Origin: a virus
Virus record (IMG/VR): IMGVR_UViG_3300021085_000079
Span: 1 to 39,691 of that record
Reading direction: 5' to 3' (one strand)
Length of the DNA: 39,691 nt
Part shown: in pieces, positions 3,272 to 32,139 of the stretch
Numbering within the stretch: the first letter of the stretch is position 1
How the letters are laid out: the number at the start of each line of letters is the position of its first letter
Made by a program: the position numbers and the translations under genes
Notes under the pieces: model-generated
What the model saw: the letters and a program-made list of their open reading frames with translations, nothing else
The model's database searches: none
What the model was told of the DNA's origin: nothing

Positions 3272-3739
3272 ATGTTTAGTAATAATAATGAAAAACGACT
3301 TACGACATATGCTTCTTTGCTGCAAAATATAAGAGAAGACAAAGATGTAAGTAGTCTTCATCTTGTAGGTCCTCATGTATCGGTATATAAAGAACATACA
3401 GACGCTATTAATAAAATTCACAATAAGTATAAAAATAGTGAAGGCATGCATAGTGAAAAAGAAAAGAAACATCTGAATGCTCTTAGTACCCATCATAATG
3501 AATTATCCAAGTTTCATACAGGTCTTGCGAATGTGCACGGATTTATAGGTAACAAAGAAAAAAGTAGTGAACACAATATGATTGCTGCACAACATACAGG
3601 CCTATCAGGTGATGTAAACCCAGGTCGAAGCTTGGCAAGTCAAAAAAAGAGTTTTTTTCACAAAGCTGATCACGGTGAAGCAGCTGAAAAAATATCAGAT
3701 CTTACTAAGCGTGGGCACAACGCGCTTAAAGAAAGTTAA
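3272..3739 (+). CDS. Hypothetical head-cluster protein, His-rich
   Basis: This 155-residue protein has an AGGGAGG ribosome site just upstream (3259-3265). It is rich in His, Lys and Ser and mostly helical by pattern (HTDAINKIHNKYKNSEGMHS, THHNELSKFHTGLANVHGFI). No membrane segment or known motif is seen. It lies between prohead core and protease genes and would be transcribed from the late promoter at 2778. It could be a head-internal protein packaged with DNA, since the next-but-one gene product has similar His/Ala-rich helices. No function can be assigned. Confidence 0.6.
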   Translation: MFSNNNEKRLTTYASLLQNIREDKDVSSLHLVGPHVSVYKEHTDAINKIHNKYKNSEGMHSEKEKKHLNALSTHHNELSKFHTGLANVHGFIGNKEKSSEHNMIAAQHTGLSGDVNPGRSLASQKKSFFHKADHGEAAEKISDLTKRGHNALKES

Positions 3740-7803: not shown

Positions 7804-8022
7804 ATGTGGACACTCAGAGGACAATTCAGCGTTAGGCAATTCGATGAAACTACAGGAAAACCTAGAACTGAAGGTCCTCTTGAGTGGACTGCAATAACAG
7901 TTAAAACTCAAGAAGAAGCTGAAGAATGGTGGAAATGTAGAACTAGTACTAATTGTAAAGTCAATAGAGTTAGTACAATGTTTGATCCAAATGGTAATGT
8001 TGTTAAAGTAGCATTTAATTAA
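7804..8022 (+). CDS. Hypothetical small early protein
   Basis: This 72-residue protein has its own early-type promoter and an AAAGGA ribosome site (7792-7797). The sequence (MWTLRGQFSVRQFDE..., QEEAEEWWKCRTSTNCKVNR) suggests a compact alpha/beta fold with no membrane segment. It stands alone between the capsid terminator and the opposite-strand fibre island. Its stop codon abuts the stop codon of the convergent gene at 8023 with no spacer. Isolated early genes of this kind in T4-like phages often encode host-takeover factors, but no function is recognisable. Confidence 0.65.
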   Translation: MWTLRGQFSVRQFDETTGKPRTEGPLEWTAITVKTQEEAEEWWKCRTSTNCKVNRVSTMFDPNGNVVKVAFN

Positions 8023-8436
8023 CTACGAATTAGATATAGATTGTAAATGTAAACGAATTCGTTCGTTTCTATCATCTATTGCATCTATTGATTTTTCTAT
8101 TGCCAATTCATAAGCAGCAAGTTTTTCTTTAGTCGATTCTTCTTCTGGTGGTGCAAATGGCTGAGTAAGGTATGCGTCAAAAGGAATGTCAATATTAGCT
8201 TCTGTTATAGTTTTAGATTCATAATGATTTATCCAATATACGGTTCCTCTAAAATCAGGTCCTATAGTCCAAGCAGATCCATCCCAAACCGCACATTCCT
8301 TATCTGATAGATCTGGAATAGCAATTGTAGTTGCGTGGGCTGGAACGCGATCATTACCTCCTAAAGGGCATGGTTTTGCAGTAGTTGTATTGGTATACAC
8401 TTTAGTTTTTTTATCATAATTATATATTAACGTCAT
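8023..8436 (-). CDS. Tail fibre assembly-type protein
   Basis: This 137-residue protein is last in the minus-strand fibre island. The pattern is that of small fibre-assembly (Tfa/gp38-like) proteins: a proline-containing N-half with an AVWDGSAWTI motif (Trp-rich, substrate-linked), a middle DFRGTVYW, and a charged helical C-terminal tail (residues 95-137). Such proteins help fold or cap trimeric fibres. It follows the 231-residue fibre by 10 bases and may serve it. The family call is by pattern only. Confidence 0.6.
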   Translation of the reverse strand: MTLIYNYDKKTKVYTNTTTAKPCPLGGNDRVPAHATTIAIPDLSDKECAVWDGSAWTIGPDFRGTVYWINHYESKTITEANIDIPFDAYLTQPFAPPEEESTKEKLAAYELAIEKSIDAIDDRNERIRLHLQSISNS

Positions 8437-8446
8437 AATTAATTCC

Positions 8447-9142
8447 TTATATTTTAATGCAGTACATTACTTCAATATCATTTATATAAGTACCTCTAAA
8501 ATCTGGAACATTGAAGGAGTTAGTGCCATCACCTATTCCATATTTAATATCAATTGCAGAAAATAGATTTGAATATAATTTTCTATCAATACCTGAACCA
8601 TCGCATTCTAGCCAACCTTTGGGTTCTATTCCAACTGAGAAAGTCATAATACTTCCTGATGGAAGATTAATATTTTCAATTGCTTTAGTATTGCTATTGA
8701 TGTTATCTGTATTAGTAGCAATATTTTTTTTATTAATAGCAATATTTTTTTTATTATTATCGATATTAATTATTGCTTTATTTAATTTTAATACAGTTAC
8801 TACTCCTGTATTAGTCATTGTAACGTCACCAGACAAAGAAGCTGCAGTAAACCCTGCGCCGTTATTAATTAAAATTTGAGTATCTAATAGCATTTTAGAT
8901 GATGCATCACCATCTGCAGCGTCATCTCTAACTAAAACTGAATTAGCATCCATATCTTGAATTTTAGCATATGTGATTTCATCATCTGGAATTTTGACTG
9001 CTGTTATTGCATCATCTGCAATCATTTCATTAAAAACTTGAGTCTCTGTTATAATTCCATTTGCAGTTGAACTTCCAAGAACAGTATTTGCAACAGAAAT
9101 ATTTTGTATTTGAGAATAAAATACTTTATCATTATGTGTCAT
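8447..9142 (-). CDS. Short tail fibre with collar domain
   Basis: This 231-residue fibre has three parts. Residues 21-117 are nearly the same as residues 168-265 of the large fibre at 15211-16860 (VLGSSTANGIITE, TDTQILINNGAGFTAA-type text). Residues 118-160 are Asn/Lys/Ile heptads (NNKKNIAINKKNIATNTDNI), a likely trimeric coiled coil. Residues 165-222 are a phage tail-collar domain (KGWLECDGSGI, FNVPDFRGTY). It then ends abruptly in MYCIKI without the long HxH-containing loop seen in the other collar fibres. AAAGG precedes the ATG. It is probably an adhesin that lost its variable tip, or a minimal form. Confidence 0.75.
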   Translation of the reverse strand: MTHNDKVFYSQIQNISVANTVLGSSTANGIITETQVFNEMIADDAITAVKIPDDEITYAKIQDMDANSVLVRDDAADGDASSKMLLDTQILINNGAGFTAASLSGDVTMTNTGVVTVLKLNKAIINIDNNKKNIAINKKNIATNTDNINSNTKAIENINLPSGSIMTFSVGIEPKGWLECDGSGIDRKLYSNLFSAIDIKYGIGDGTNSFNVPDFRGTYINDIEVMYCIKI

Positions 9143-9167
9143 TGATCACCTTTATTTACATAATTAA

Positions 9168-9443
9168 TTATTCAGGTTTATCTGGCCAAGTTACATTTGT
9201 GGGAAACCCTTCTTGGGCAGGCAAGTCTCTCAATGCTTGTCGATAAGTGCGCCACTCATCTGTTATGCGGTCAGCTAAAGCCATGTAGTCAGCTGCCACT
9301 AGTAATGCATCCCGATCCGCTCGTACTTGTATTGCGTTTGCTACCACAGCACTTTCCTGAAAGTCAGGCCAATCACTTATGTTTGCAGAATTATCAAATA
9401 CTGCACCAAGACCTGTTTCTTTGTTATAAAATATTTTAGACAT
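9168..9443 (-). CDS. Fibre-associated small chaperone (Phage_tail_APC-like)
   Basis: This 91-residue protein has a C-terminal half with the pattern RADRDALLVAADYMALADRI then WRTYRQALRDLP and GFPTNVTWPDKPE, the signature of the short phage tail assembly chaperone-like family (PF16778 type). Similar C-termini end the products at 13573-13989 and 14697-15092, so each large fibre is followed by one. AAGGATAA precedes the start. Roles in fibre folding or attachment are inferred from family and position. Confidence 0.7.
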   Translation of the reverse strand: MSKIFYNKETGLGAVFDNSANISDWPDFQESAVVANAIQVRADRDALLVAADYMALADRITDEWRTYRQALRDLPAQEGFPTNVTWPDKPE

Positions 9444-9464
9444 TAGTTTATCCTTACTAGTATA

Positions 9465-11777
9465 TTATATTGTATAGTATAGTCTAATTGAACCGTTTGC
9501 ACCATCACCAGTCACTACGGTTGTTGTAGTACTACCGCCGAAATTAACGTGTGTAGCACCGCCGCCACCACCTGGAAATCCACCGTTTACACCATCTACA
9601 TTTGTAGTAGATGCAGCTACACCATCACCTGCGTAAGTTGAGACACCAAAGGCACCACCGCCGGCATTTCCTGTCATGCCTTGTGATGCACCACCTGCAA
9701 ATTGTTCAGTAGCAGGAGTAAAGCTTGTATCTGCGCCAGCTCCTGAACCACCACCAGTTACATCCCAACTAGCGGATATATCATTTTCACCTGGCCTTGT
9801 CCACCAAATTATCTGTCCACCGCCGCCAGTAGAAGCACCTGAGTTAGCCGCTATTCCGCCTTCGCCGCCAGCAGCTGTATATATTGTACTACCAGTTCCT
9901 ATGGTTGTAATAGTAGTATTGCCACCGGCCGGTCCTTGACTGGAAGTAGAACCAATACCACCACTGCCAATTGTAAATGAAGCGCCGTTAAGTGTGCTAG
10001 CCTTCAAAGCAATGATCATAGCACCACCACCTGCCCCAGCCCTCGCCTTTTGGATAGATGAAAAACCAGTCTTATTCGCAAACGTATGTCCACCGGCACC
10101 TCCACCACCAACACCATAAGCAATGACCCAAGCGTCATCACTTAAAGCGGCTGGTTTAGTCCAAGTGCTTGATGTAGTAATTTCTTCTGTGTGTGAATTC
10201 CAATTAGGTTCTACTGGGTAATCAGAAGCTAATATACTACTTAGGTCTGTATGATTTGCTAGTTTAACCCAGTTACCAGCGTGAGCAAAGTAGCCTGCGC
10301 CTGTAGAATGAACATGAGCAAACATACCATGATAGGTGGTCGCGCTTGGCAAATCACCTTCTGTAGCATACATGTTTGCAAATAATACTTTGTTGCCTCC
10401 GGCATCAATATCACCTGTAATTCCATAGCCTGATAATGTAGTTGGAGTATTTGTTAAATCTGAAAATGCTACACCAGCACCACCACCAGAAGAGGTTGAT
10501 TGATATTTAATACAAGCAAGTAGGGCTATGTTGCGTGGGCGGGTTTCTGTACCACCTGTAGCTGCCGTTTCCCTATTCGGAGAGCCTGAATATAATCGTT
10601 GTGTAGAATCCGCCGCTGAGTAGGCACGGTTGTCATCAACCGCTGTACCGTTGTAAACAGTGTGTGTGTGACTTTTTAACTCATCAGCCTGTGCAGAACC
10701 AAAAGCTCGACTAGTATCAATTCCACGGCCGTCATCCCAACCTCTGGGAAACTCACCACGAAGGTCAGGAACATTGAACGTGGAAGAGCCGTCACCACTA
10801 CCAAAAGTTGTACCAATTGCTGCAAACAAATCAGAGTAAGTTGTCCTCGATATAGCAGCACCATTAGCTTTTATGAAATTTGTAGGGGGAGTATTAGCTG
10901 CATGATAAATTACTGTACCGGCAGAAACTGATGAATTTGCAATGCTATTTGATACCCATGCATAATCTGTACCATTCCAACTTAACACTTGATTAGATGT
11001 CGCAGTACCTTGGTTCAAGTGTGTATCAACATCACTATTTGCATATGAACCACCACCGCCACCATCTGTAATTCCGTAGCCGGCTAAGGTAGTTGGAGTA
11101 CTTGTTAAATCGGAGAATGCTACACCAGCACTACTACCTGATCCAGACGTTGATTGATATTTAATGCAAGCAAGTAGGGCTATGTTTCTTGGACGGGTTT
11201 CTGTACCGCCTGTCTCGCTGGTTGCTCGTCCATTCACCACAGGAAACGAATTATTTGTTCCGGCCCCGGTGCCTGTTGGGTTTGTTCCGTTTGTCCCGTC
11301 TGTGTAGTTGTGAGTGTGTGCTTTTAGCTCATCCGCTTGAGCCGAGCCAAAGGAACGACCGTTATCAATTCCACGACTATCATCCCAGCCACGCATAAAC
11401 TCACCACGAAGGTCAGGCACGTTAAATGTAGTGGACCCATCACCAGCGCCATACGTAGTTCCAATAACTGTAAACAAATCAGAGTAAGTTGTCCTCGATA
11501 CAGCATCACCATTGGCTTTTATGAAATTCGTAGGGGGTGTGTTGGCTGAATGATAAATTACCGTACCAACTGGAACTGATTCACCTGTTCCTGTTGCACC
11601 ATCTGTAATTCCATAGCCAGCTAAAGTAGTTGGAGTACTTGTTAAATCTGAAAATGCTACATTAGTAGATACAGCTTGTGAAAGTCCTAATTTTAACCAG
11701 TTCGCACCATCATATTTCCAAGTTTTTCCACTTAAAATATACGTATCGCCCGTAGTTGGATTTGTTGGATATGACAT
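9465..11777 (-). CDS. Large tail fibre/adhesin with two collar domains and polyglycine tip
   Basis: This is a 770-residue modular fibre. Residues 1-35 are the NPTTGDTYIL attachment-type domain shared with two neighbours. DLTSTPTTL repeats lie at 42-60, 219-239 and 437-455. Collar domains lie at about 68-145 and 286-362, each followed by an HxH (HTH at 154-156 and 370-372) and a variable loop ending RPRNIALLACIKYQ. A TTYHGMFAHVH module lies at 465-510. The C-terminal 220 residues are very glycine-rich (GVGGGGAGG, GGAMIIALKASTL, GGFPGGGGGATH), resembling polyglycine-helix tips of T-even gp38-type adhesins. The start overlaps the previous stop by one base (TAATG). It probably binds host surface sugars or outer-membrane proteins. 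Confidence 0.85.
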   Translation of the reverse strand: MSYPTNPTTGDTYILSGKTWKYDGANWLKLGLSQAVSTNVAFSDLTSTPTTLAGYGITDGATGTGESVPVGTVIYHSANTPPTNFIKANGDAVSRTTYSDLFTVIGTTYGAGDGSTTFNVPDLRGEFMRGWDDSRGIDNGRSFGSAQADELKAHTHNYTDGTNGTNPTGTGAGTNNSFPVVNGRATSETGGTETRPRNIALLACIKYQSTSGSGSSAGVAFSDLTSTPTTLAGYGITDGGGGGSYANSDVDTHLNQGTATSNQVLSWNGTDYAWVSNSIANSSVSAGTVIYHAANTPPTNFIKANGAAISRTTYSDLFAAIGTTFGSGDGSSTFNVPDLRGEFPRGWDDGRGIDTSRAFGSAQADELKSHTHTVYNGTAVDDNRAYSAADSTQRLYSGSPNRETAATGGTETRPRNIALLACIKYQSTSSGGGAGVAFSDLTNTPTTLSGYGITGDIDAGGNKVLFANMYATEGDLPSATTYHGMFAHVHSTGAGYFAHAGNWVKLANHTDLSSILASDYPVEPNWNSHTEEITTSSTWTKPAALSDDAWVIAYGVGGGGAGGHTFANKTGFSSIQKARAGAGGGAMIIALKASTLNGASFTIGSGGIGSTSSQGPAGGNTTITTIGTGSTIYTAAGGEGGIAANSGASTGGGGQIIWWTRPGENDISASWDVTGGGSGAGADTSFTPATEQFAGGASQGMTGNAGGGAFGVSTYAGDGVAASTTNVDGVNGGFPGGGGGATHVNFGGSTTTTVVTGDGANGSIRLYYTI

Positions 11778-13549
11778 TATGAAATCCTTAGAAATATAGT
11801 AACTGTTGTTGAATTCGCAGCAGTTGTTGATAAATTATAAGCCCCGCCGACAGACATGCAGCGCCATGTGCCGCTAGGCGCAGACCCTGACATGCCATAG
11901 TAACTTGGACTGTAAGAATAAGTGCTACTATACCGAAGTGAACTGCCCGATACATCTGTGCCAAGAGATGTAGTGCTACCATCAGCTTTACCAAGTAGTG
12001 AGTAAGTACCAACACCTCCAGCTGTTGTACTACCTGATGCACTACTCAGGTCTGCATGATTTGCTAGTTTAATCCAATTACCGCCATGAGCAAAGTAACC
12101 TGCTCCTGTACCGTGAACATGTGCAAACATACCGTGATAGGTGGTTGCACTTGGCAAATCACCTTCTGTAGCATACATATTCGCGTATAGTATCTTTCCT
12201 GTGGTAGTGATATCAAATGTTTGGGCGTCCAGATTGCCACCAAGCTGTGGTGTGGTATCTTCAACTATGTTGCTGAGAGAACCGCCACCACCACCAGAAG
12301 AGGTTGATTGATATTTAATACAAGCAAGTAGGGCTATGTTTCTTGGGCGGTTTTCAGAAGAATTAGACGTTCCACCGGTGAAATCTGTAGACGCATTGTT
12401 GCTTGAAAACACTCCGGTACCAACTACTATTCGGTCATGATTACCACCAAAGTTAGCGGCAGAAGGTACGCTGTGATTGTGGGATTCCATTTGGTCAGCC
12501 TGTGCAGAACCAAAAGAACGGCTGGCATCAATTCCACGGCCGTCATCCCAACCTCTAGGAAACTCGCCGCGAAGGTCGGGGACATTAAAAGTAGAAGATC
12601 CATCGCCACTACCAAAAGTTGTACCAATTGCCGTAAACAAATCAGAGTAAGTTGTTCTTGATATAGCAGCGCCGTTAGCCTTAATAAAGCCTGTAGGGGC
12701 TGTATTAGCTGAATGATAAATTACTGTACCAACTGCAGCTGATTCACTTGCACCATCTGTAATTCCGTAGCCGGCTAAGGTAGTTGGAGTACTTGTTAAA
12801 TCGGAGAATGCTACACTACCGCCTCCGGCTCCTCCTCCACCCGATGCTGAATTCCTAATTCCGTACATTACTATTTCGCCCGAGAAGATGTTCCCTGACG
12901 AAAAAAAGAATCGAATCGCATCGACCGCTGTTGCTTGCTTGTAAATATTACCAGCCCCAGCATACGATATTGTTTGTGTCGTTACTCCATTATTTCGTGT
13001 ATATATCAAATTAACGGTATCTGCGAACGTGTATTCATCAGTTAAATGTAGCGCATATAAATTAAATAAACCACCTACACCATAGCCATGTGTATTAGTC
13101 CCCACACTATCAGCTAATACAAACGCTGTTCTAGCACTACCAGCCGTTTCATAATTTCCACTAGTGGCAGAATAAGTCGAACTTCCAGTTGGCCTTAAGC
13201 GTGCAAATAAGTTTGCACCATTTGTATCAGGTATGACATTTTGAAGCGCAAAGACATAATGATCATACTTAGTTGCATCAAACTGTGTAAAGCTAACATC
13301 AGCCACATTACTTAAAGCCCCTGATGAAGCAATGAATTCCATTGCTCCGCCACCGCTACCACTGCCACCATCTGTAATTCCGTAGCCAGCTAATGTAGTT
13401 GGAGTACTTGTTAAATCGGAGAATGCTACACTAGCACTACTACCTGATGCAAACGTTGCTTGATTTACCCAGTTCGTGCCATTGTAGGTCCAAGTTTTTG
13501 ATCCTAAAACATAGGTGTCACCGGTCGTTGGATTTGTTGGATATGCCAT
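11777..13549 (-). CDS. Tail fibre with collar domain and TWR-RIS tip
   Basis: This 590-residue fibre has the NPTTGDTYVL N-domain (1-30). Next comes a DLTSTPTTL repeat, then a domain of about 160 residues with KYDHYVFALQNVIPDT and FSGEIVMYGI (a beta-sandwich type common in marine phage fibres). A second DLTSTPTTL repeat is followed by a collar domain (about 265-345) with HNH and RPRNIALLACIKYQ, then the TTYHGMFAHVH module. The last 80 residues contain GTWRCM and end FLRIS, as in the fibre at 15211. A late promoter lies 20 bases upstream and an AGGAGA ribosome site follows it. It is translated just before the 770-residue fibre with a 1-base overlap. Confidence 0.82.
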   Translation of the reverse strand: MAYPTNPTTGDTYVLGSKTWTYNGTNWVNQATFASGSSASVAFSDLTSTPTTLAGYGITDGGSGSGGGAMEFIASSGALSNVADVSFTQFDATKYDHYVFALQNVIPDTNGANLFARLRPTGSSTYSATSGNYETAGSARTAFVLADSVGTNTHGYGVGGLFNLYALHLTDEYTFADTVNLIYTRNNGVTTQTISYAGAGNIYKQATAVDAIRFFFSSGNIFSGEIVMYGIRNSASGGGGAGGGSVAFSDLTSTPTTLAGYGITDGASESAAVGTVIYHSANTAPTGFIKANGAAISRTTYSDLFTAIGTTFGSGDGSSTFNVPDLRGEFPRGWDDGRGIDASRSFGSAQADQMESHNHSVPSAANFGGNHDRIVVGTGVFSSNNASTDFTGGTSNSSENRPRNIALLACIKYQSTSSGGGGGSLSNIVEDTTPQLGGNLDAQTFDITTTGKILYANMYATEGDLPSATTYHGMFAHVHGTGAGYFAHGGNWIKLANHADLSSASGSTTAGGVGTYSLLGKADGSTTSLGTDVSGSSLRYSSTYSYSPSYYGMSGSAPSGTWRCMSVGGAYNLSTTAANSTTVTIFLRIS

Positions 13550-13569
13550 TTCTGTTTCTCCTGATTATA

Positions 13570-13577
13570 TATTTATA
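13570..13577 (-). promoter_or_regulatory. Late promoter TATAAATA (minus strand)
   Basis: An exact box (TATTTATA on the plus strand) overlaps the stop codon of the chaperone at 13573 and lies 20 bases before the ATG of the 590-residue fibre. It would give the downstream fibres their own late transcript. Confidence 0.65.
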
Positions 13578-13989
13578 CAGGTTTATCTGGCCAAGTTACA
13601 TTTGTAGGAAACCCTGACTGTTGTGGTACATTTAATAAGTCAGTTCTATATTGTGTCCACTCTGTTTGCTTATCAGATGTAAGTTCTGCCCAACGTAAAG
13701 GGTTAGTTACTATAGGGTCCAATTCTTCTACTAACTTCTGGTCACGTTGACTTCTTAGATTTGCTTCAAGTTCTGCATCTAACTCTGCCTGAGTAGGTGC
13801 TACATAAGATGTAAAGTTTGTGCTTATCAAAGACATTACAGCATTGTTATCGATAGTCATATCAGTGTCGCTAGGGTCCAAAGTGTAAGGTATCCAACCG
13901 TAATCGGGATGATTAATTTCTACATCATATGCAGTATTCTCTACGTTAAGTGATTGTGCATTACGCACTTGTGTAATTGTAACAGACAT
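13573..13989 (-). CDS. Fibre-associated chaperone-like protein
   Basis: This 138-residue protein has an N-terminal half with small beta-type text (AYDVEINHPDYGWIPY, DTDMTIDNNAVMSLIS). The C-terminal part has a helix (QAELDAELEANLRSQRDQKL) followed by the chaperone signature WTQYRTDLLNVPQQSGFPTN and WPDKPV. It follows the 222-residue collar fibre by 12 bases with an AAGGAGA site. It is a paralogue of the proteins at 9168 and 14697. It is likely a folding or capping partner of the fibre just upstream. The N-terminal half differs between the copies, as expected if it recognises different fibres. Confidence 0.7.
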   Translation of the reverse strand: MSVTITQVRNAQSLNVENTAYDVEINHPDYGWIPYTLDPSDTDMTIDNNAVMSLISTNFTSYVAPTQAELDAELEANLRSQRDQKLVEELDPIVTNPLRWAELTSDKQTEWTQYRTDLLNVPQQSGFPTNVTWPDKPV

Positions 13990-14001
13990 TATTGTTTCTC
14001 C

Positions 14002-14670
14002 TTAATATTTAATACAAGCTAGAAATGCAATGTTTCTTGGACGTGTTTCTGAACCTCCAGAGCCGCCAATATGTTGCCCATCAGTATTTGATGGTGTTCC
14101 TGTAAACGCTGACCTGTTTGCTTGACCTCCATTACTGTCCATGAGTATACCGCCGCCGCCAGTATCGTTGGTAACATTAAATTCAGTGCCCCGCCTTGAA
14201 GGGTGACCGTGTAGCTTAAATTCATCAGCCTGTGCAGAACCAAAAGAACGACTGGTATCAATTCCGCGCGCGTCATCCCATCCACGCATAAACTCACCAC
14301 GAAGGTCGGGGACATTAAAAGTAGAAGATCCATCACCAGCGCCATACGTAGTGCCTATTGCTGCAAACAAATCAGCATAAGTTGTTCTTGATATAGCAGC
14401 ACCATTAGCCTTAATAAAGCCTGTAGGGGCTGTATTAGCTGCATGATAAATTAATGTACCGGCAGGAACTGATGCACTTGATGAACTTGCAGCATCAGTA
14501 ATTCCATAGCCTGATAATGTAGTTGGAGTACTTGTTAAATCTGAGAATGCTACATCTGCAGATACAGTTTGTGAAAGTCCTAATTTTACCCAGCGCGAAC
14601 CATTGTATTTCCAAGTTTTTGATCCTAAAATATATTCATCACCTGTTGTCGGGTTTAATGGATATGGCAT
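14002..14670 (-). CDS. Short tail fibre with collar domain
   Basis: This 222-residue fibre is the simplest complete collar fibre here. It has an NPTTGDEYIL N-domain (1-35), one DLTSTPTTL repeat and a collar domain (about 70-145, with FNVPDLRGEFMRGWDD). A short variable loop carries HGH and a Gly-rich patch, and the end is RPRNIAFLACIKY. Collar fibres of T4 gp12 type form short trimeric adhesins. The HxH after the collar corresponds in position to the metal-binding pair of T4 gp12. The NPTTG domain shared with the two larger fibres suggests that they attach at the same virion site. GGAGA precedes the ATG. Confidence 0.8.
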   Translation of the reverse strand: MPYPLNPTTGDEYILGSKTWKYNGSRWVKLGLSQTVSADVAFSDLTSTPTTLSGYGITDAASSSSASVPAGTLIYHAANTAPTGFIKANGAAISRTTYADLFAAIGTTYGAGDGSSTFNVPDLRGEFMRGWDDARGIDTSRSFGSAQADEFKLHGHPSRRGTEFNVTNDTGGGGILMDSNGGQANRSAFTGTPSNTDGQHIGGSGGSETRPRNIAFLACIKY

Positions 14671-14696
14671 TCCTTTTTCTCCTAATTATGCATACT

Positions 14697-15092
14697 CTAT
14701 TCGGGTGAAGTGGGCCATGTTATTGTGTTTGGAAATCCTGCTTGAGTTGGTACGTCCCGTAAAAGTTGTCTGTATGTTGCCCAAGCAGACTTATCTACAG
14801 GAGAGTCATCAACCTGTGTCCAATCTGAAGTTATCAATAGTCCGTCACGCTTTCCACGGGCTAAAACTTCTGGTGCAATAGACTCAGGTTCTGGATCAGG
14901 TTCTACAATGGGTATATTCTCTACAACCCATCCTGAACCATCCCACTTAGCAAGTTGGCTGTCAGTTATTGTTGGTGGTGCAGTCTGTACGCAACCCGCT
15001 GGAATAAGCCAGTTAGTGTCATCTAAAGGGTCTTGATCTGCTGTTGTAGTGCCTACATAAACACCATTTAAATCTGTCTGATATACGTTCAT
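14697..15092 (-). CDS. Fibre-associated chaperone-like protein
   Basis: This 131-residue protein has an N-terminal half with the Tfa-like LAKWDGSGWVVENIP motif. The C-terminal half has RGKRDGLLITSDWTQVDDSP, WATYRQLLRDVPTQAGFPNT and WPTSPE, the fullest match here to the tail assembly chaperone signature. GGAGA at 15099-15103 precedes the ATG. The fibre that originally preceded it is reduced to a scar (15105-15221), so this chaperone either serves another fibre or is an orphan. Confidence 0.72.
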   Translation of the reverse strand: MNVYQTDLNGVYVGTTTADQDPLDDTNWLIPAGCVQTAPPTITDSQLAKWDGSGWVVENIPIVEPDPEPESIAPEVLARGKRDGLLITSDWTQVDDSPVDKSAWATYRQLLRDVPTQAGFPNTITWPTSPE

Positions 15093-15104
15093 ACCAATGT
15101 CTCC

Positions 15105-15221
15105 TTAATATTTAATACAAGCTAGAAATGCAATGTTTCTTGGCCGGGTTTCTGTACCACCAGTATACCCCTTTGAACCGCTATTTGCTTCAGAACTACT
15201 CCAATAGTCATTATGAAATCC
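15105..15221 (-). pseudogene. Remnant of a deleted collar fibre
   Basis: On the minus strand a 38-codon open stretch without a start codon ends GGTETRPRNIAFLACIKY then TAA, the exact C-terminus of the collar fibre at 14002. The nucleotides also match there almost base for base. Upstream of it is the junction AGGATTTCATAATG. The same string precedes the start of the 770-residue fibre after the homologous tip at 11777. The simplest reading is a fibre gene that lost everything between its start codon and its last 35 codons. Confidence 0.75.
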
Positions 15222-16860
15222 TCACAAATAAACTGCCGGATACGTTTGCGTTACTTGCAGTGGTACCTTGATTATAATAGCCTATGTTTCCCATAAGGCG
15301 CCAAGTTCCTGATAAAGTAGAAGTACTAGATCCACTCCAGCCACTAGTACCGGCATAAGTATTAGCAGTAGCAATTGAACTTCCTGAGAAAGTAGCACCT
15401 CCATTGTGAATGCCAAGACCAGTATAGAACCCCAAACAATAAGTTCCAATGGCATTAAAGGTTGTACTACTTGATGCAGATGTAAATGTAAATCCAGCAC
15501 TACCGTCTGTTGTTAGTACTTGTCCGCTTGTTCCATCAGTAATACTTAGGTCAGTTAATACCGACGGTGCATCTGTAATTCCGTAGCCAGCTAAAGTAGT
15601 TGGAGTACTTGTTAAATCGGAGAATGCTACATTAGCGACTACGCCAGTAACCTGTATCCAATTTGATGCATCATTACTATAAATAAACAGTTCTCCAGTT
15701 GCGCTGTCATCAAACCAAAAAGTACCATTTAAAGGTGCAGCTGGAGGCGATGCGCCTATTGTTGAAAAAGAAGTGATTGATCCAGTAACCTGTATCCAAT
15801 TTGATGCACTATCACTATAAATGAACAGTTCTCCGTCTGTTACATCATCAAACCAAAAAGTACCATCTAAAGGTGCCGCCGGTGGTGTTCCACTTATAGC
15901 TGAAAAAGAAGTGATAGACCCTGTGACCTGTATCCAATTTGATGCGCTATCGCTATATACAAACATTTCGCCGGCTGTTACATCGTCAAACCAGGCTGTT
16001 CCATTTGCAGGTGAAGTTGGGGCGTTTCCACCGATAGTAATGCCTACACTCCCGATTACTGACGGATCAACTGTTACTACTCCAGCATTATTCATTGTAA
16101 TATCACCAGATAATGCTGCAGCAGTAAATCCTGCTCCATTATTAATTAAGATTTGAGTATCTGTTAAAGTTTTTGCTGATATATCTCCAGCTGCAGCTCC
16201 GTCTCTAACTAGAATTGAATTGGCGGCTGCATCTTGAATTTTAGCATATGTAACATTATCATCTAGAATTTTAACAGTAGTAACAGCGTCATCTGCAATC
16301 ATTCCAGTTTGCACTTGAGTCTCTGTTATAATTCCATTTGCGGTTGAACTTCCAAGAACTTTGTTTGCGCCTACAACATTTTGCATTTTAGAATACGTAA
16401 CAACATCAGGTTGAATTGTAACAACACCAGCATTTGTCATAAGAACATCTTGAGATAAAGCAGCAGATGTAAAACCATTGCCATTACCAATTAAAATTTG
16501 TTCATTAATTATTTCTTTATCAGACAAAGCTCCGGCAGAATTTGCATCTCTAACTTTAATTGTATTTCCCGGAGCAGGGCCTATACTTAAACCATTTGAA
16601 TCCTGTGTTAATCCAGTTCCAGCTAAAACATTAAATACACCTGAAGAATCTCCACTAGTTGATTTGGTTATTCCAAGACCTGCTGAGTAGAGGCCTTTTT
16701 TATCAAATGCAAAATTCATAGCTTCTACAAAATCAGAATCATGACCAGTAAATTCAGAAGATAAATCATCTAAATCACCTATCAAAAGACTGAGAGCATT
16801 TGTCTTTATTCTCCAAGTGTTGATAGTGTCACTTAAGTTTACAGTTATGCGTCTAGCCAT
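15211..16860 (-). CDS. Large tail fibre, first gene of the island
   Basis: This 549-residue fibre has a unique N-terminus (1-60, MARRITVNLSDTINTWRIKT, helical, likely virion attachment). It is followed by two related beta modules (119-149 and 236-266, QILINNGAGFTAAALSGD). Three tandem repeats of about 43 residues (277-407) are built on NGTFWFDD...GELFIYSDSASNWIQV. A DLTSTPTTL repeat and a tip with TFTSASSSTTF and GTWRLM end in FVRIS. It has no collar domain. The start is preceded by a minus-strand late promoter at 16899-16906. It probably makes the proximal or main fibre, while the collar genes add tips or alternatives. That is inference. Confidence 0.8.
   Translation of the reverse strand: MARRITVNLSDTINTWRIKTNALSLLIGDLDDLSSEFTGHDSDFVEAMNFAFDKKGLYSAGLGITKSTSGDSSGVFNVLAGTGLTQDSNGLSIGPAPGNTIKVRDANSAGALSDKEIINEQILIGNGNGFTSAALSQDVLMTNAGVVTIQPDVVTYSKMQNVVGANKVLGSSTANGIITETQVQTGMIADDAVTTVKILDDNVTYAKIQDAAANSILVRDGAAAGDISAKTLTDTQILINNGAGFTAAALSGDITMNNAGVVTVDPSVIGSVGITIGGNAPTSPANGTAWFDDVTAGEMFVYSDSASNWIQVTGSITSFSAISGTPPAAPLDGTFWFDDVTDGELFIYSDSASNWIQVTGSITSFSTIGASPPAAPLNGTFWFDDSATGELFIYSNDASNWIQVTGVVANVAFSDLTSTPTTLAGYGITDAPSVLTDLSITDGTSGQVLTTDGSAGFTFTSASSSTTFNAIGTYCLGFYTGLGIHNGGATFSGSSIATANTYAGTSGWSGSSTSTLSGTWRLMGNIGYYNQGTTASNANVSGSLFVRIS
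15640..16032 (-). repeat. Three tandem ~130-base repeats in a fibre gene
   Basis: The copies each encode about 43 residues with WFDD, GELFIYSDSASNWIQVTG and a Pro/Ala-rich linker. Each begins near a CCTGTATCCAATTTGATGC string on the plus strand (about 15652, 15788 and 15926). The last copy in gene order has diverged most at its linker (SNDASN). Confidence 0.85.
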
Positions 16861-16898: not shown

Positions 16899-16906
16899 TA
16901 TTTATA
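16899..16906 (-). promoter_or_regulatory. Late promoter TATAAATA for the fibre island
   Basis: TATTTATA on the plus strand is an exact late box on the minus strand, 38 bases before the start of the first fibre gene. It is back to back with the plus-strand box at 16917, 10 bases away. Confidence 0.75.
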
Positions 16907-16916
16907 TGTAGAAAAA

Positions 16917-16924
16917 TATAAATA
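16917..16924 (+). promoter_or_regulatory. Late promoter TATAAATA
   Basis: This is an exact late box, 22 bases before the tail-tube-fold gene at 16947. It is followed by a strong AAAGGAG ribosome site (16934-16940). Confidence 0.8.
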
Positions 16925-16946: not shown

Positions 16947-17465
16947 ATGGCAGAATTAACAACTAACATTAATTTTCTACAAAGTACGCAGTTTAAAGTA
17001 ATAATTGATAGAAAAAAATTCGGCAATTTAGAATTTTTTGCTCAATCATTTCAGCATCCTGGTGTTACGGTTACTTCTGCTCCAATGGCGTATAAAAGAA
17101 TTTCTACAGTTGGTTTGCCTGGTGACACTTTAACCATTGATGAATTAGGTTTTGAAGTAATAGTAGATGAAAATATGAATTCTTACATCGAGATGTATAA
17201 TTGGGCAAAATCTCAAACAGAAGATAGAAGAGGAATTCTTGGTGATAATCCTTTATATCGTGACATACCATCTCCAACAGACACACATGAAGCAGACATC
17301 ACTGTTTTACTATTAACAAATTCGAACAAAGTTGTTAAAACAATAAAATATATTGATTGTGTTCCAACGTCACTAAGCTCATTAAATTTTGCTGCAACAG
17401 TAGGTGAACCATCACAGGTTACATTTCAAGCCTCATTTAGAAATGAGTATTTTACTATAACTTGA
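16947..17465 (+). CDS. gp19-fold tail protein (tube/baseplate paralogue)
   Basis: This is a 172-residue protein of the T4 gp19 tail-tube fold. The N-terminal STQFKVIIDRKKFGNLEFFA strand pair is followed by QHPGVTVTSAP and GDTLTIDELGFEVIVDENMN then EMYNWAKSQ, and the C-terminal strand is PSQVTFQASFRNEYF. It is distinct from the main tube at 484. The wide tail family includes baseplate hub and tube-initiator proteins (gp48/gp54 type) as well as tubes, so a baseplate or tail-completion role is likely. It has its own late promoter and stands next to uvsY. Confidence 0.7.
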   Translation: MAELTTNINFLQSTQFKVIIDRKKFGNLEFFAQSFQHPGVTVTSAPMAYKRISTVGLPGDTLTIDELGFEVIVDENMNSYIEMYNWAKSQTEDRRGILGDNPLYRDIPSPTDTHEADITVLLLTNSNKVVKTIKYIDCVPTSLSSLNFAATVGEPSQVTFQASFRNEYFTIT

Positions 17466-20024: not shown

Positions 20025-20615
20025 ATGCCCAAAAAAACTAAAAATGTACATTATGTAAATAATGCTGAATTCTCATTATCAGTAGTCAACTATGTAAAAA
20101 CTGTTTCTGAAGCTAAAGAAAATAACGATGTTTTACCAATTGTTCCTGATGATATTGCTATATCTTTTTTAAAAATTGCTGAAAATCTTTCACATAAGTC
20201 TAATTTTATACGATATACTTATCGTGAAGAAATGGTTATGGATGCAGTTGAAAATTGTCTAAAAGCTGTTGAAAACTATAATATTGATGCTAAAACTCGT
20301 TCAGGCAAACCAAACGCATTTGCTTATTTTACTCAAATTATTTGGTTTGCTTTTCTTCGTAGAATTACAAAGGAAAAGAAACAGCAAGAGATTAAAGAAA
20401 AGTATATGTTGCAATCTGGAGTTGAAGCGTTTATCACTTCTTCTAGTAGTGAAGAATCGACTCAGGTAGCTACGCACTTTGTTGATACTTTAAAAGATAG
20501 AATTAGTAAAGTAAAAGAATATGATACCGAGCTTAAAACTTTTGCTAAAGCTAATAAGACACCAAAGAAAAGAGCTCGTACAGTTGACTCAGACTTACAG
20601 GATTTCTTAGAGTGA
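20025..20615 (+). CDS. 55: Late-transcription sigma factor gp55
   Basis: This 196-residue protein matches T4 gp55 (185): VHYVNNAEF at the start, FIRYTYREEMVMDAVENCLK, NAFAYFTQIIWFAFLRRITK and EKKQQEIKEKY. It binds host RNA polymerase core and recognises TATAAATA late promoters. The C-terminal SDLQDFLE corresponds to the T4 motif SLDFLYE that binds the gp45 sliding clamp, so clamp-activated late transcription appears to be kept. The gene opens a unit that runs on into gp47-gp46. Confidence 0.92.
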   Translation: MPKKTKNVHYVNNAEFSLSVVNYVKTVSEAKENNDVLPIVPDDIAISFLKIAENLSHKSNFIRYTYREEMVMDAVENCLKAVENYNIDAKTRSGKPNAFAYFTQIIWFAFLRRITKEKKQQEIKEKYMLQSGVEAFITSSSSEESTQVATHFVDTLKDRISKVKEYDTELKTFAKANKTPKKRARTVDSDLQDFLE

Positions 20616-28318: not shown

Positions 28319-30910
28319 TTGAATAATTTTTACACATCAGTTAATCGGTATGGTAATACTATTTTATATAGAGGCTATACTGAAAATGGTACTCGAATAG
28401 AAGATCGTATTAAATTCGGTCCAACACAATATTTGCCATCGAAAGAACCCACAAAATTTCGTTCTTTCGATGGTGGATATCTAAATGCTATTAAATTTCA
28501 AAAAATGAGTGAGTCAAAAGATTTTCTTGAAACTTATAAAGAAATGGAAGGCGTTAAAGTCTATGGCACTCGAAACTATATCCAACAATTTATTACAGAT
28601 AAATTTCCAGATAATATAAATTTTAATCAAAATCACATTAACGTTGTTAATTTTGATATTGAAGTAGCATCTGATGATGGTTTTCCTATTCCAGAAGAAG
28701 CAGCATATCCTATTATATCAATTGCTCTTAAATCTAGTAAATCTTCTATTTACGAAGTGTGGGGTTTAGGTGAATACGATACAAATAAAACAGAATTAGA
28801 AATGAATGGTGATCTAATCAAGTATCATAAATTTGATACTGAAAAAGCTATGTTAGCTTCCTTTTTACACTATTGGGTAAACAATTATCCAGATGTTATT
28901 ACAGGTTGGCATATTCGTTTCTTTGATATTCCTTATCTTGTAAATCGTATCAAAAATATTGGTACTGAAGAAGCAGCCAATAAACTTTCTCCATGGAAGC
29001 TAGTTAATGATAGACAAATAACTAAGATGGGTCGTACTCAGTATAGTTATGAATTAGTTGGTATTCAAACCGCAGACTATATTGAATTATTCAAAAAGTT
29101 TGGTTATTCATATGGCGCTCAAGAATCTTATAAGCTTGACCATATTGCTTATACAGTCCTCAATGAAAAAAAATTATCTTATGAAGAACATGGTAATCTT
29201 CACAGTTTATATAAAGCTGACCATCAAAAGTTTATTGACTATAATATTAAAGATGTTCAACTTGTAGACCGTATTGATCAAAAGATGGGTCTTATTAATC
29301 TTGGATTGACTATGGCATATAAAGGTGGTGTTAATCTTGGTGATACAATGGGTACAACTTCAATATGGGAATCAATCATTTATCGAAGACTTCTTAAAAA
29401 TAATGTAATATCACCAATTGAACAGATTAAACCATGTATGTATGCTGTTCATGGAGCTACTGAAACTTCAAAGAAAAACCCAGCTGGTAATTTAGATCGT
29501 ACCCGTGAACCACAAAAATCTCACGCAATTGCTGGAGGTTATGTTAAAGATCCACATGTTGGTTCACATGATTGGGTCGTATCATTTGATTTAAATTCTC
29601 TATATCCAAACATAATTGTTCAATCTAATATATCTCCTGAAACTCTTGTAAAAGATAAATCATTTGGTGAATATACCCAAGGTGTTGATCACTATTTTAT
29701 TGATGGTCAGGCTGCTTCTGATGAGTATTCTATATGTGCAAGTGGTGTTCCATTTAGTAAAAATAAGCAAGGTATTATTCCTGAATTAATTGTTGAATAC
29801 TATGCTGAACGTAGTGTAATTAAACAAAAAATGCTTAAAGTAAAACAAGAGTATGAGCAAACAAAAAATACAGCTCTTGAGTCAGAAATTAATCAGCTAG
29901 AAAATAATCAAATGGCTATTAAGATTCTACTTAATTCTTTGTATGGCGCAATGGCAAATAAGTATTTTAAATATTTTGATAATGCTCTTGCCGAAAGTGT
30001 AACTCTTACTGGTCAACTTTCAATAAAGTGGGCTGAAAGAGCTATCAATGTTGAAATGAATAAAATACTTAAAACTAAAGGAAAAGATTATGTTATTGCT
30101 ATTGACACTGACTCAGTCTACATTAATTTTGGTCCTCTTATTGCTCAACTGGCGCCAAAGGACTCTGTTAAAGCATTGGACAAAATTTGTAAGACACACT
30201 TCGAACCCATAATTGCTAAGTCATATGATAAATTATTTCATAGATTAAATGCTTATACTCCTCGTATGGAAATGGGTAGAGAAGTTATAGCTGATCGTGG
30301 CATATGGACAGCAAAGAAAAGATATATTCTCAATGTACATAATAATGAAGGTGTACAATACGCTGAACCAAAACTTAAAATCATGGGGATTGAAGCTATT
30401 AAATCAAGTACTCCCGAAGTAGTTCGTGATAAATTTAAAGAAGCTTTTAAAATAATCGTTACTGGATCTGAACTTGCAACTCGTAAGTTTATAGATAACT
30501 TTAGACAAGAATTTAAATCATTACCTCCTGAAAAAGTATCATTTCCTCGTGGCGTTTCAGAAGTATCCAAATGGCAAGATAGAAATTTAATTTATAAAAA
30601 GGGTACACCAATTCATGTTCGTGGTTCTCTTTTATATAATCATGAAATTAAAGACAAAGCTCTTAATAAGAAATATGATATGATACAAAATGGTGAAAAG
30701 ATTAAATTTACTTATCTTAAGATGCCTAATCCTATTAAAGAAAATGTCATATCCTTTCCTGAATACTTACCACCTGAGCTTAATCTTCATAAATATATAA
30801 ACTATGATATACAATTTAATAAAACTTTTATTGAACCGCTCACGCCAATTCTTGATGCTGTTGGCTGGTCAGTTGAAGATAGAGCAACATTAGAGGATTT
30901 CTTTGGATGA
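28319..30910 (+). CDS. 43: Family B DNA polymerase gp43
   Basis: This 863-residue protein (T4: 898) has a complete exonuclease and polymerase. Exo I is VNFDIEVAS (Asp113, Glu115). Motif A is [20 protein letters not shown], motif B is [16 protein letters not shown], and motif C is AIDTDSVYI. KxY is in AKKRYILNV. The last residues ATLEDFFG match the T4 clamp-binding tail ASLDFLFG. The start is TTG, five bases after GGAGGA. The adjacent ATG at 28314 is out of frame and stops after one codon. It overlaps the PEPCK gene by 4 bases. Confidence 0.97.
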
Positions 30911-32139
30911 CAAATATTAATATTACAACAAATCCAACTGGCCGAAGCCCAGAAAATAAATACTTTTTTGGAGAAAAAACAAAGTGTTTAGATAAGACTC
31001 GACCAAAGTATTATAAAGTTGGAGAGATGGAAGACTTTCTTCAACTTGCAGATTTGATGATGCCTAGGTTAATATCTCAATTGATTTATAAAGAACCTTT
31101 ATGCCTTGAGACATGTAATATCAGATTTAAAATAATTACTAATGATGCGAGACATGAGCAATTTGTTAAGAATATGTTTGATGTATTGCCTGATGGGTTC
31201 GATCCTCAAGTTTATCCACATAGCGCACATGATTCTGATTGGACGATTTGGCATAACACAGAATTAAAGGTCGATGAACCAAAAATCTATGTAAATCTTG
31301 ATACTAAAACTATGTTAATTGCTGGAACAACATTTTTAGGTGAAATCAAAAAAGGTATATTTGGTATAGTTAGTTTTGAACTACCAAGATATGATATTTT
31401 ACCAATGCATTGTAGTGCCTTTACATATAATGATACAACTAATTTAATGTTTGGATTAAGTGGTACTGGTAAAACTACTCTTAGTAGCGATCCGGATTAT
31501 AGATTAATTAGTGATGACGAAGTATCTTGGAATCACGATGGAATTGAAATGATAGAAACTGGTTGTTACGCAAAAAGTGAAGGATTAACACCAGAGACAC
31601 ATAAGACTATATTTGATGCAGTAGAAAAAGCAAGATCAGAAGATTGCTTAGTTGTAGAAAATCCAGGTGTACCAAATGCAAGATTAAGTTATCCAATTAC
31701 TTGTGTTGAAAACGCATATCATAAACCTCAACAATTTAATCATCCAACTAATATCTTTTTTCTTACTATGGATGCGAAAGGCGTGTTTCCTCCGGTATCT
31801 AAAATTTCTGATGAGACTGTACGACGTTTCTTTGAAACTGGATACACAAGCCAAATGCCCGGAACTGAGCAGGGAGCAACAGAAATCAAGCCACTCTTTA
31901 GTCCATGCTATGGCTCACCTTTTATGCCAAGACCGATACATGTTTATAGTGATTTACTAATGAGTAAAATTAATGATAATAAATGCAATGTATATTTAAT
32001 CAATACGGGAATGGATAAAGAAGGCAAGCGATATCCATTGGACTTTACTAGAAATTGTGTCAAGGGAGCTATTAGACGTGGTACTCATGACGATAGTGAA
32101 AGTGTGTTAAACATTCTAGAAAGCTTAATAAATGATTAA
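30907..32139 (+). CDS. pckA: Phosphoenolpyruvate carboxykinase (ATP-type), compact viral form
   Basis: This 410-residue homologue (cellular about 540) would catalyse oxaloacetate + ATP to PEP + CO2 + ADP. Kept motifs are TGRSPENKY (Arg13), GEIKKGIFG (Lys148-149), MHCSA (His168), the kinase loop [14 protein letters not shown] (183-196), ISDDE (Asp203-204), ARLSYPI (Arg259), [10 protein letters not shown], and YLINTG then [10 protein letters not shown] (Arg382). Relative to E. coli Pck it lacks about 50 N-terminal and 80 C-terminal residues, and Phe143 stands where Tyr207 is. It is coupled to gp43 (ATGA) and to the phosphomannomutase (8-base overlap). Its role may be gluconeogenic carbon for sugar phosphates, or an altered kinase. 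Confidence 0.9.

Follow-up and report, generated by a model that had tools for sequence, protein, structure and literature searches.

In phage T4, a single gp37/gp38 pair couples the distal fibre tip to a cognate small assembly or adhesin gene lying just downstream. Cobaviruses are described as carrying two tail fibres and three tail assembly chaperones, located in a variable region (PMC6775973). As described for Alteromonas phages V22 and A5, a fibre followed by its cognate downstream chaperone is common to distant phages, and the V22 chaperone is required for maturation and absent from the final fibre (PMC7289586, PMC10579305). In pelagimyophages, a host recognition cluster with a mean length of 44.6 kb lies between VrlC and gp14 and contains glycosyltransferases (PMC7029224). 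Here, we analysed a 39,691-bp stretch of DNA, the complete IMG/VR record IMGVR_UViG_3300021085_000079 (the window; the rest of the genome lies outside it), in which an island at positions 8023-16860 is located between the major capsid gene gp23 and a gp3-like tail gene. The first-pass annotation had placed five fibre genes and four small chaperone-type genes on the minus strand of this interval, and the open reading frames matched exactly. We consider it reasonably probable that this island is where a T4-like marine myovirus, probably infecting a roseobacter, keeps an array of adhesin cassettes that recombine.

The island is an insertion. In the related loci L009, L012, L117 and L123-L127, the small open reading frame x72, which marks the left, gp23-side edge of the insertion site (7804-8022, plus strand), is followed directly by ~50-250 bp of intergenic sequence with a late-promoter box and then by gp3, with no fibre gene at the site. 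The right edge is marked by the gp3-like gene of the tail-tube family (16947-17465, plus strand; phrog_45, E 3e-24). Between L009 and the window, gp22 is 95% and gp23 92% identical. We also noted that gp3 is only 65% identical in the same comparison, which indicates that the right flank beside the island is mosaic as well. In the named phage C48C1 the tail-tube gene directly follows gp23.

Reading from gp3 along the minus strand, which carries all of these genes, the order is F1, a scar, C1, F2, C2, F3, F4, C3, F5 and C4 (F, fibre; C, chaperone-type). The first fibre, F1 (15211-16860; open reading frame and motif calls), consists of an F1N adaptor, two stalks in succession, three WFDD repeats, a DLTST block and a RIS tip. 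A fibre with an F1-like stalk is present at a different location in L123, a 90-kb record. F2 (14002-14670; open reading frame, Pfam and motifs) is an NPTTG-DLTST-collar tip fibre. F3 (11777-13549; motifs) reads NPTTG-DLTST-F3ins-DLTST-collar-YHG-RIS tip and appears to be a stack of former tips, F3ins being a terminal tip in other loci. F4 (9465-11777; Pfam and motifs) reads NPTTG-DLTST-collar-DLTST-collar-DLTST-YHG-glycine-rich tip. F5 (8447-9142; Pfam, retention in siblings and selection), a stalk followed by a short collar fibre, forms the conserved far end of the array and may be the distal half split off from an F1-like fibre. The shared blocks were recovered in the numbers first reported: three NPTTG domains (F2, F3 and F4), seven copies of DLT(S/N)TPTTL (one each in F1 and F2, two in F3, three in F4), five collar domains (F2, F3, two in F4, F5) plus a remnant of 32 codons, two TTYHGMFAHVH blocks (F3 and F4) and two TWR...RIS tips (F1 and F3). 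All five collars scored above the Pfam cut-off for PF07484 (E 8e-19 to 3e-42). The repeat structure exceeded chance, with four 300-nucleotide copies at 72-78% identity and seven 107-nucleotide copies at 66-93%. By eye, NPTTG, WFDD and YHG all end in ...NWvkl, and we tried them as one repeated fold; profile-profile probabilities of 0.9-14% gave no support. A model of the RIS tip (mean pLDDT, the predicted local distance difference test score, of 75) had no fold match in the PDB, and the PHROG and Pfam matches of tips or helpers named no gp37 or gp38 family.

A comparison of the island between sibling genomes, which the first-pass annotation had proposed, showed that siblings differ in the tips they carry. 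At least eight siblings share the same ends (F1 beside gp3, F5-C4 beside x72) and vary in their interior cassettes, and siblings whose flanks are 96-99.8% identical differ in tips and cassette order. L094 and L099 share 99.8% identity across 11,851 bp; from 13 bp past DLTST onward, the tip of the second fibre differs. Similarly, L095 and L096 are ~96-97% identical to the window, L091 and L092 through F1 to 14 bp past its DLTST block (15559-15665, minus strand; located by repeat and breakpoint comparison), where a collar replaces the RIS tip. Based on these alignments, fibre tips appear to have been swapped, lost or reordered, and the predicted cell-binding parts to change much faster than the rest of the genome. 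Two smaller changes were also seen. At window positions 11068-11123, L011 and L091 lack ~72 bp including one F4 copy of DLTST in genomes otherwise 97-99.5% identical, and in L092 (positions 7931-8041) a DLTST block is tandemly duplicated (about 60 nucleotides) within one fibre gene.

The switch points are concentrated. Six of 13 breakpoint clusters fell in DLTST or within 20 bp past it, a zone comprising 4.8% of island bases (P 7e-4), several tip switches lying 8-16 bp past the block. The junction in L102 was dropped as a likely assembly chimera, since a 107-nucleotide exact repeat lies at the contig end; without it, 5 of 12 clusters were at DLTST (P 0.004). Three more clusters lay at nearly one site in the collar, at nucleotides 258-280 of the domain. 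DLTST thus behaves, as far as these alignments can tell, as a crossover point within fibre genes. Where DLTST copies encode the same residue, codon identity was 0.85, where codon usage predicts 0.39 (for collars, 0.59 observed and 0.42 predicted), the pattern to be expected if exchange keeps the block uniform. DLTST is not private to the island; many fibre proteins of other phages contain it, and their N-termini are unrelated. A SVAFSDLTSTPTTLAGYGITDA block was likewise seen in fibre proteins whose N-termini differ, encoded on many unrelated marine phage contigs (L315-L340).

The unusual uniformity of DLTST DNA would also fit an array in which the tail carries F1 alone, or perhaps F1 and F5, and F2-F4 act chiefly as a store from which tips are transferred to F1 by recombination at DLTST. 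The F1N adaptor, which also occurs in two tandem fibre-like, structural genes of the relative G005, is found in F1 only, and the F1 tip varies between siblings (RIS or collar). Yet F2-F4 retain start codons, strong Shine-Dalgarno sites, the NPTTG start domain and a low ratio of non-synonymous to synonymous substitution rates (dN/dS), none of which a silent store needs, and F3 is preceded by its own late-promoter-like box, equally needless in a store. We regard this arrangement as unlikely. F1 itself is probably tail-anchored and would dock via F1N; a tblastn search of named phages gave no match to F1N, although IMG/VR relatives have it. Since the NPTTG fibres lack F1N, they might attach to F1 and not to the baseplate, forming one fibre with several tips, for which the arrangement proposed for LtfA/LtfB of DT57C is a precedent (PMC4728585). 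The position and order of F1 are fixed, whereas the number of NPTTG fibres ranges from one to three or more between siblings, and we give such a branched fibre a similarly low probability.

Loss of a cassette has left a trace in the window. The scar (15102-15210, minus strand; motif and frame) consists of the last ~32 codons of a lost collar-tip fibre, frame-consistent and with no start codon. L092, 96% identical in the flank, has an intact precursor and reads F1-C2-[NPTTG-DLTST-DLTST-collar]-C1 at this site. The window sequence ..TTTCATAATGACTATTGGAGTAGTTCTGAAGC.. aligns with ..TATAATAATTATTGGGCTAGTTCTGAAGC.. in the L092 collar, indicating that a deletion joined the end of F1 to the collar interior at about five bases of homology (ATAAT). 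The deletion evidently took out C2 and most of one fibre. Another C2 (13573-13989) is retained in the window, and intact versions of the scarred fibre are present in relatives.

If the array consisted of redundant, decaying duplicates, a neutral by-product of recombination around one functional fibre, then remnants such as the one at 15102-15210 and the frequent gains and losses between siblings would be accounted for. All other genes are intact and under purifying selection, in relatives too, and the chaperone classes follow the tip classes. For fibres, dN/dS was 0.07-0.17 (F5), 0.09-0.44 (F1) and 0.22-0.48 (F2), with 0.16-0.39 for gp23 as reference; for chaperones it was 0.23-0.31 (C4), 0.09-0.30 (C3), 0.27-0.76 (C2) and about 0.3 (C1, with 0.92 in one 79-codon comparison). 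In most comparisons dN/dS lay below about 0.5, indicating purifying selection, and each of the nine genes is intact. The first-pass annotation had allowed that genes other than a single fibre might be decaying in relatives; no decay of the array was seen in any relative compared. Redundancy is already largely refuted and seems very unlikely. The suggestion made at first pass of several alternative or mixed adhesins held up as regards cassette exchange and upkeep, as judged from intact genes, low dN/dS and sibling tip differences.

We sought a relation between the small genes and the tips. PF16778 (Phage_tail_APC; gathering cut-off 26.6 bits) matched C1, C2 and C3 at 78.8, 45.4 and 76.1 bits (E 7e-12 to 3e-22). 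C1 (14697-15092; Pfam and PHROG, tip pairing, PDB match 2kz6 with E 2e-6), of the collar-tip class, joins a Tfa-like N part to PF16778. C2 (13573-13989; Pfam and tip pairing), of the RIS-tip class, has its own N part before PF16778, and C3 (9168-9443; Pfam and neighbouring tip) is a short APC-only chaperone of the kind found behind glycine-rich tips. C4 (8023-8436; PHROG match, sibling order and dN/dS) had no match to PF16778; it matched the lambda-Tfa-like phrog_105 instead (E 8.5e-12) and is the conserved partner of F5. A model of C2 (pLDDT 89) gave loose matches only, namely 2kz6/CV0426 for its C-terminal half (Z 6.0) and DnaK-lid hits of a generic helical kind, and we drew no functional conclusion from matches so loose and generic.

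Across all fetched loci, C2-type genes followed RIS tips in 49 of 60 cases and C1-type genes followed collar tips in 27 of 28, while APC-only genes came after glycine-rich, F3ins and other tips. With loci dereplicated at 60% and clones of the window left out, the pairing was 27/33 for C2 with RIS and 23/23 for C1 with collar (Fisher 2e-19 and 2e-23). Of the six C2 exceptions, five still have a terminal SGT-W-(R/K)...RIS-like tip that scores under the profile cut-off, and in the sixth, L094, an APC gene intervenes. The window has mismatched neighbours of its own, C1 after RIS, which is explained by the deletion scar, and C2 after collar. A single C2 accompanies two or three RIS fibres in the window, L094, L099 and L100, and a single C1 accompanies two collar fibres in L095 and L096, several of these contigs being partial, so that a further chaperone copy may lie past a contig end. 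This pattern is most readily interpreted as each tip class having one chaperone that acts in trans. The earlier description of repeated chaperone genes was right in that there are several and wrong in that they are not copies of one; they are four different chaperones, one per tip class. More tentatively, and a little short of an even chance, each tip class may be served in trans by its own chaperone class while the uniform DLTST provides a crossover platform, so that tips would plug in with attachment and folding machinery unchanged.

The closest chaperones are those of the Roseobacter phages CRP-227 (68%) and CRP-207 (66%), where they likewise follow a tip of the matching class. RIS tips with C2 are found in CRP-227, ICBM2 and P12053L, and collar tips with C1 in CRP-207 and ICBM1. 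These shared pairs suggest a rhodobacterial host and exchange across phage families. A host assignment from cellular genomes was rejected, since a scan with the C2 profile gave four matches, all in unrelated metagenome bins.

The expression signals are arranged around the same units. The sequence TATAAATA is the T4 late-promoter consensus. One such box lies 38 bp before F1 (16899-16906, minus strand) and is found before F1 in L092, L095 and L099; its divergent partner lies 22 bp before gp3 (16917-16924, plus strand) and is present at empty sites; a third, placed by sequence position, lies 20 bp before F3 (13570-13577, minus strand). A clear Shine-Dalgarno site precedes eight of the nine genes, that of F1 being weak. 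At 11777-11796 and 15204-15230 (minus strand), the last codons of the RIS tip, AGG ATT TCA TAA TG, also supply the following gene with its Shine-Dalgarno site and TAATG start. Since the conserved RIS C-terminus encodes the ribosome-binding site and start of its neighbour, tip end and translational coupling constitute one DNA element.

Taken as a cassette array, the island would work as follows. The nine genes would be transcribed late, away from gp3, from a T4-type late promoter. Each fibre is a stack of an N-terminal piece (tail-adaptor-like F1N in F1, NPTTG in F2-F4), stalk, DLTST and a predicted receptor-binding tip at the C-terminus, which belongs to one of a few classes. Late expression would yield several trimeric fibres, each folded in trans by the chaperone of its tip class: C2 for RIS, C1 for collar, C3-type for glycine-rich and similar tips, and C4 for F5. 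Co-infecting related phages would swap tips by homologous recombination, with crossovers at DLTST or in the collar and at conserved gene ends, and occasional illegitimate deletions would leave scars. T4-like phages are well equipped for recombination, and the recombination genes UvsY and UvsW lie beside the island.

Several points weigh against this proposal. TATAAATA occurs seven times in the window against 6.8 expected by chance; with the number at chance level, only the positions of the boxes, kept before F1 in siblings, are telling. That one virion may carry several kinds of fibre, either mixed or in competition for a single dock, that their tips may bind different receptors and that the array may be expressed late are predictions drawn from sequence, and NPTTG is a putative virion-docking domain. 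The breakpoint test comprises few events, partly dependent on one another, and the loci are metagenome contigs, mostly partial, in which DLTST repeats could cause misassembly. The longest exact match between copies is at most 43 nucleotides in most genomes (66 in the window, 107 in the excluded L102, and the tandem duplication in L092), and key architectures were found again in two to four samples. We also considered dedicated phase variation by a DNA invertase or a diversity-generating retroelement, both of which usually act on fibre genes. No reverse transcriptase or resolvase family was found within the window, itself a genome fragment, the island is not framed by inverted repeats and all fibre genes lie on one strand, making this the most improbable of the alternatives.

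The surrounding genes show T4-type core order (gp18-gp23 head and tail genes, with UvsY, UvsW and gp55 near), as in a fragment of a marine T4-like myovirus. PHROG matches in the window comprise sheath, portal, protease, scaffold, major head protein, tail tube, UvsY, helicase and late sigma. To the left of the island are the genes for sheath, portal, protease, scaffold and the major head protein; to its right are those for the gp3-like protein of the tail-tube family, UvsY, UvsW and gp55, the late sigma factor (homologue at 20025-20615). Among named phages, the closest capsid relative is C48C1 (65%), followed by HTVC008M, Melnitz phages and others. Two open reading frames had no PHROG match, one of 410 (30907-32139) and one of 155 amino acids (3272-3739).

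Tips decide which bacteria a phage binds. Since near-identical natural genomes differ mainly in their tips, host-range evolution can be traced tip by tip. The small chaperone gene predicts tip class in phages of different families, and this gives a testable rule for the way in which phages with multiple adhesins keep so many fibres foldable.

The locus shares with T4 gp37/gp38 the principle of a tip with a cognate small downstream gene, and differs in that T4 has one pair, no PF16778 and other tip folds. The cobaviruses (Lentibacter ICBM1 and ICBM2, Celeribacter P12053L and SIO1) likewise have these chaperone classes downstream of RIS-type or collar tips, with fibre and chaperone genes alternating; they are podoviruses with fewer fibres at another genome position, and the accessible part of their description reports neither a DLTST crossover nor a tip/chaperone rule (PMC6775973). 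V22 and A5 have a single fibre-chaperone pair per phage, and relatives of V22 gp27 carry DUF4376, not PF16778. The pelagimyophage host recognition cluster and the cyanomyophage hyperplastic region are, like this island, hypervariable multi-fibre islands of marine T4-like phages (PMC7029224), whereas the island described here is ~9 kb long, contains fibres and chaperones only and lies between gp23 and gp3 on the opposite strand. In carotovoricin tailocins, homologous recombination around a conserved N-terminal part also moves fibre tips between lineages (PMC13195805), but these are bacterial tailocins, with an invertase in some strains, and not multi-fibre, multi-chaperone phage arrays. Multi-fibre variable regions, fibre-chaperone arrays, exchanged cognate pairs, branched fibres and recombining tailocin fibres are thus already known. 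As far as the searched literature goes, the new elements are the gp23-gp3 location with its empty site, the pattern of one chaperone per tip class across many loci, the recurrence of switch points at DLTST and a deletion scar whose precursor survives intact.

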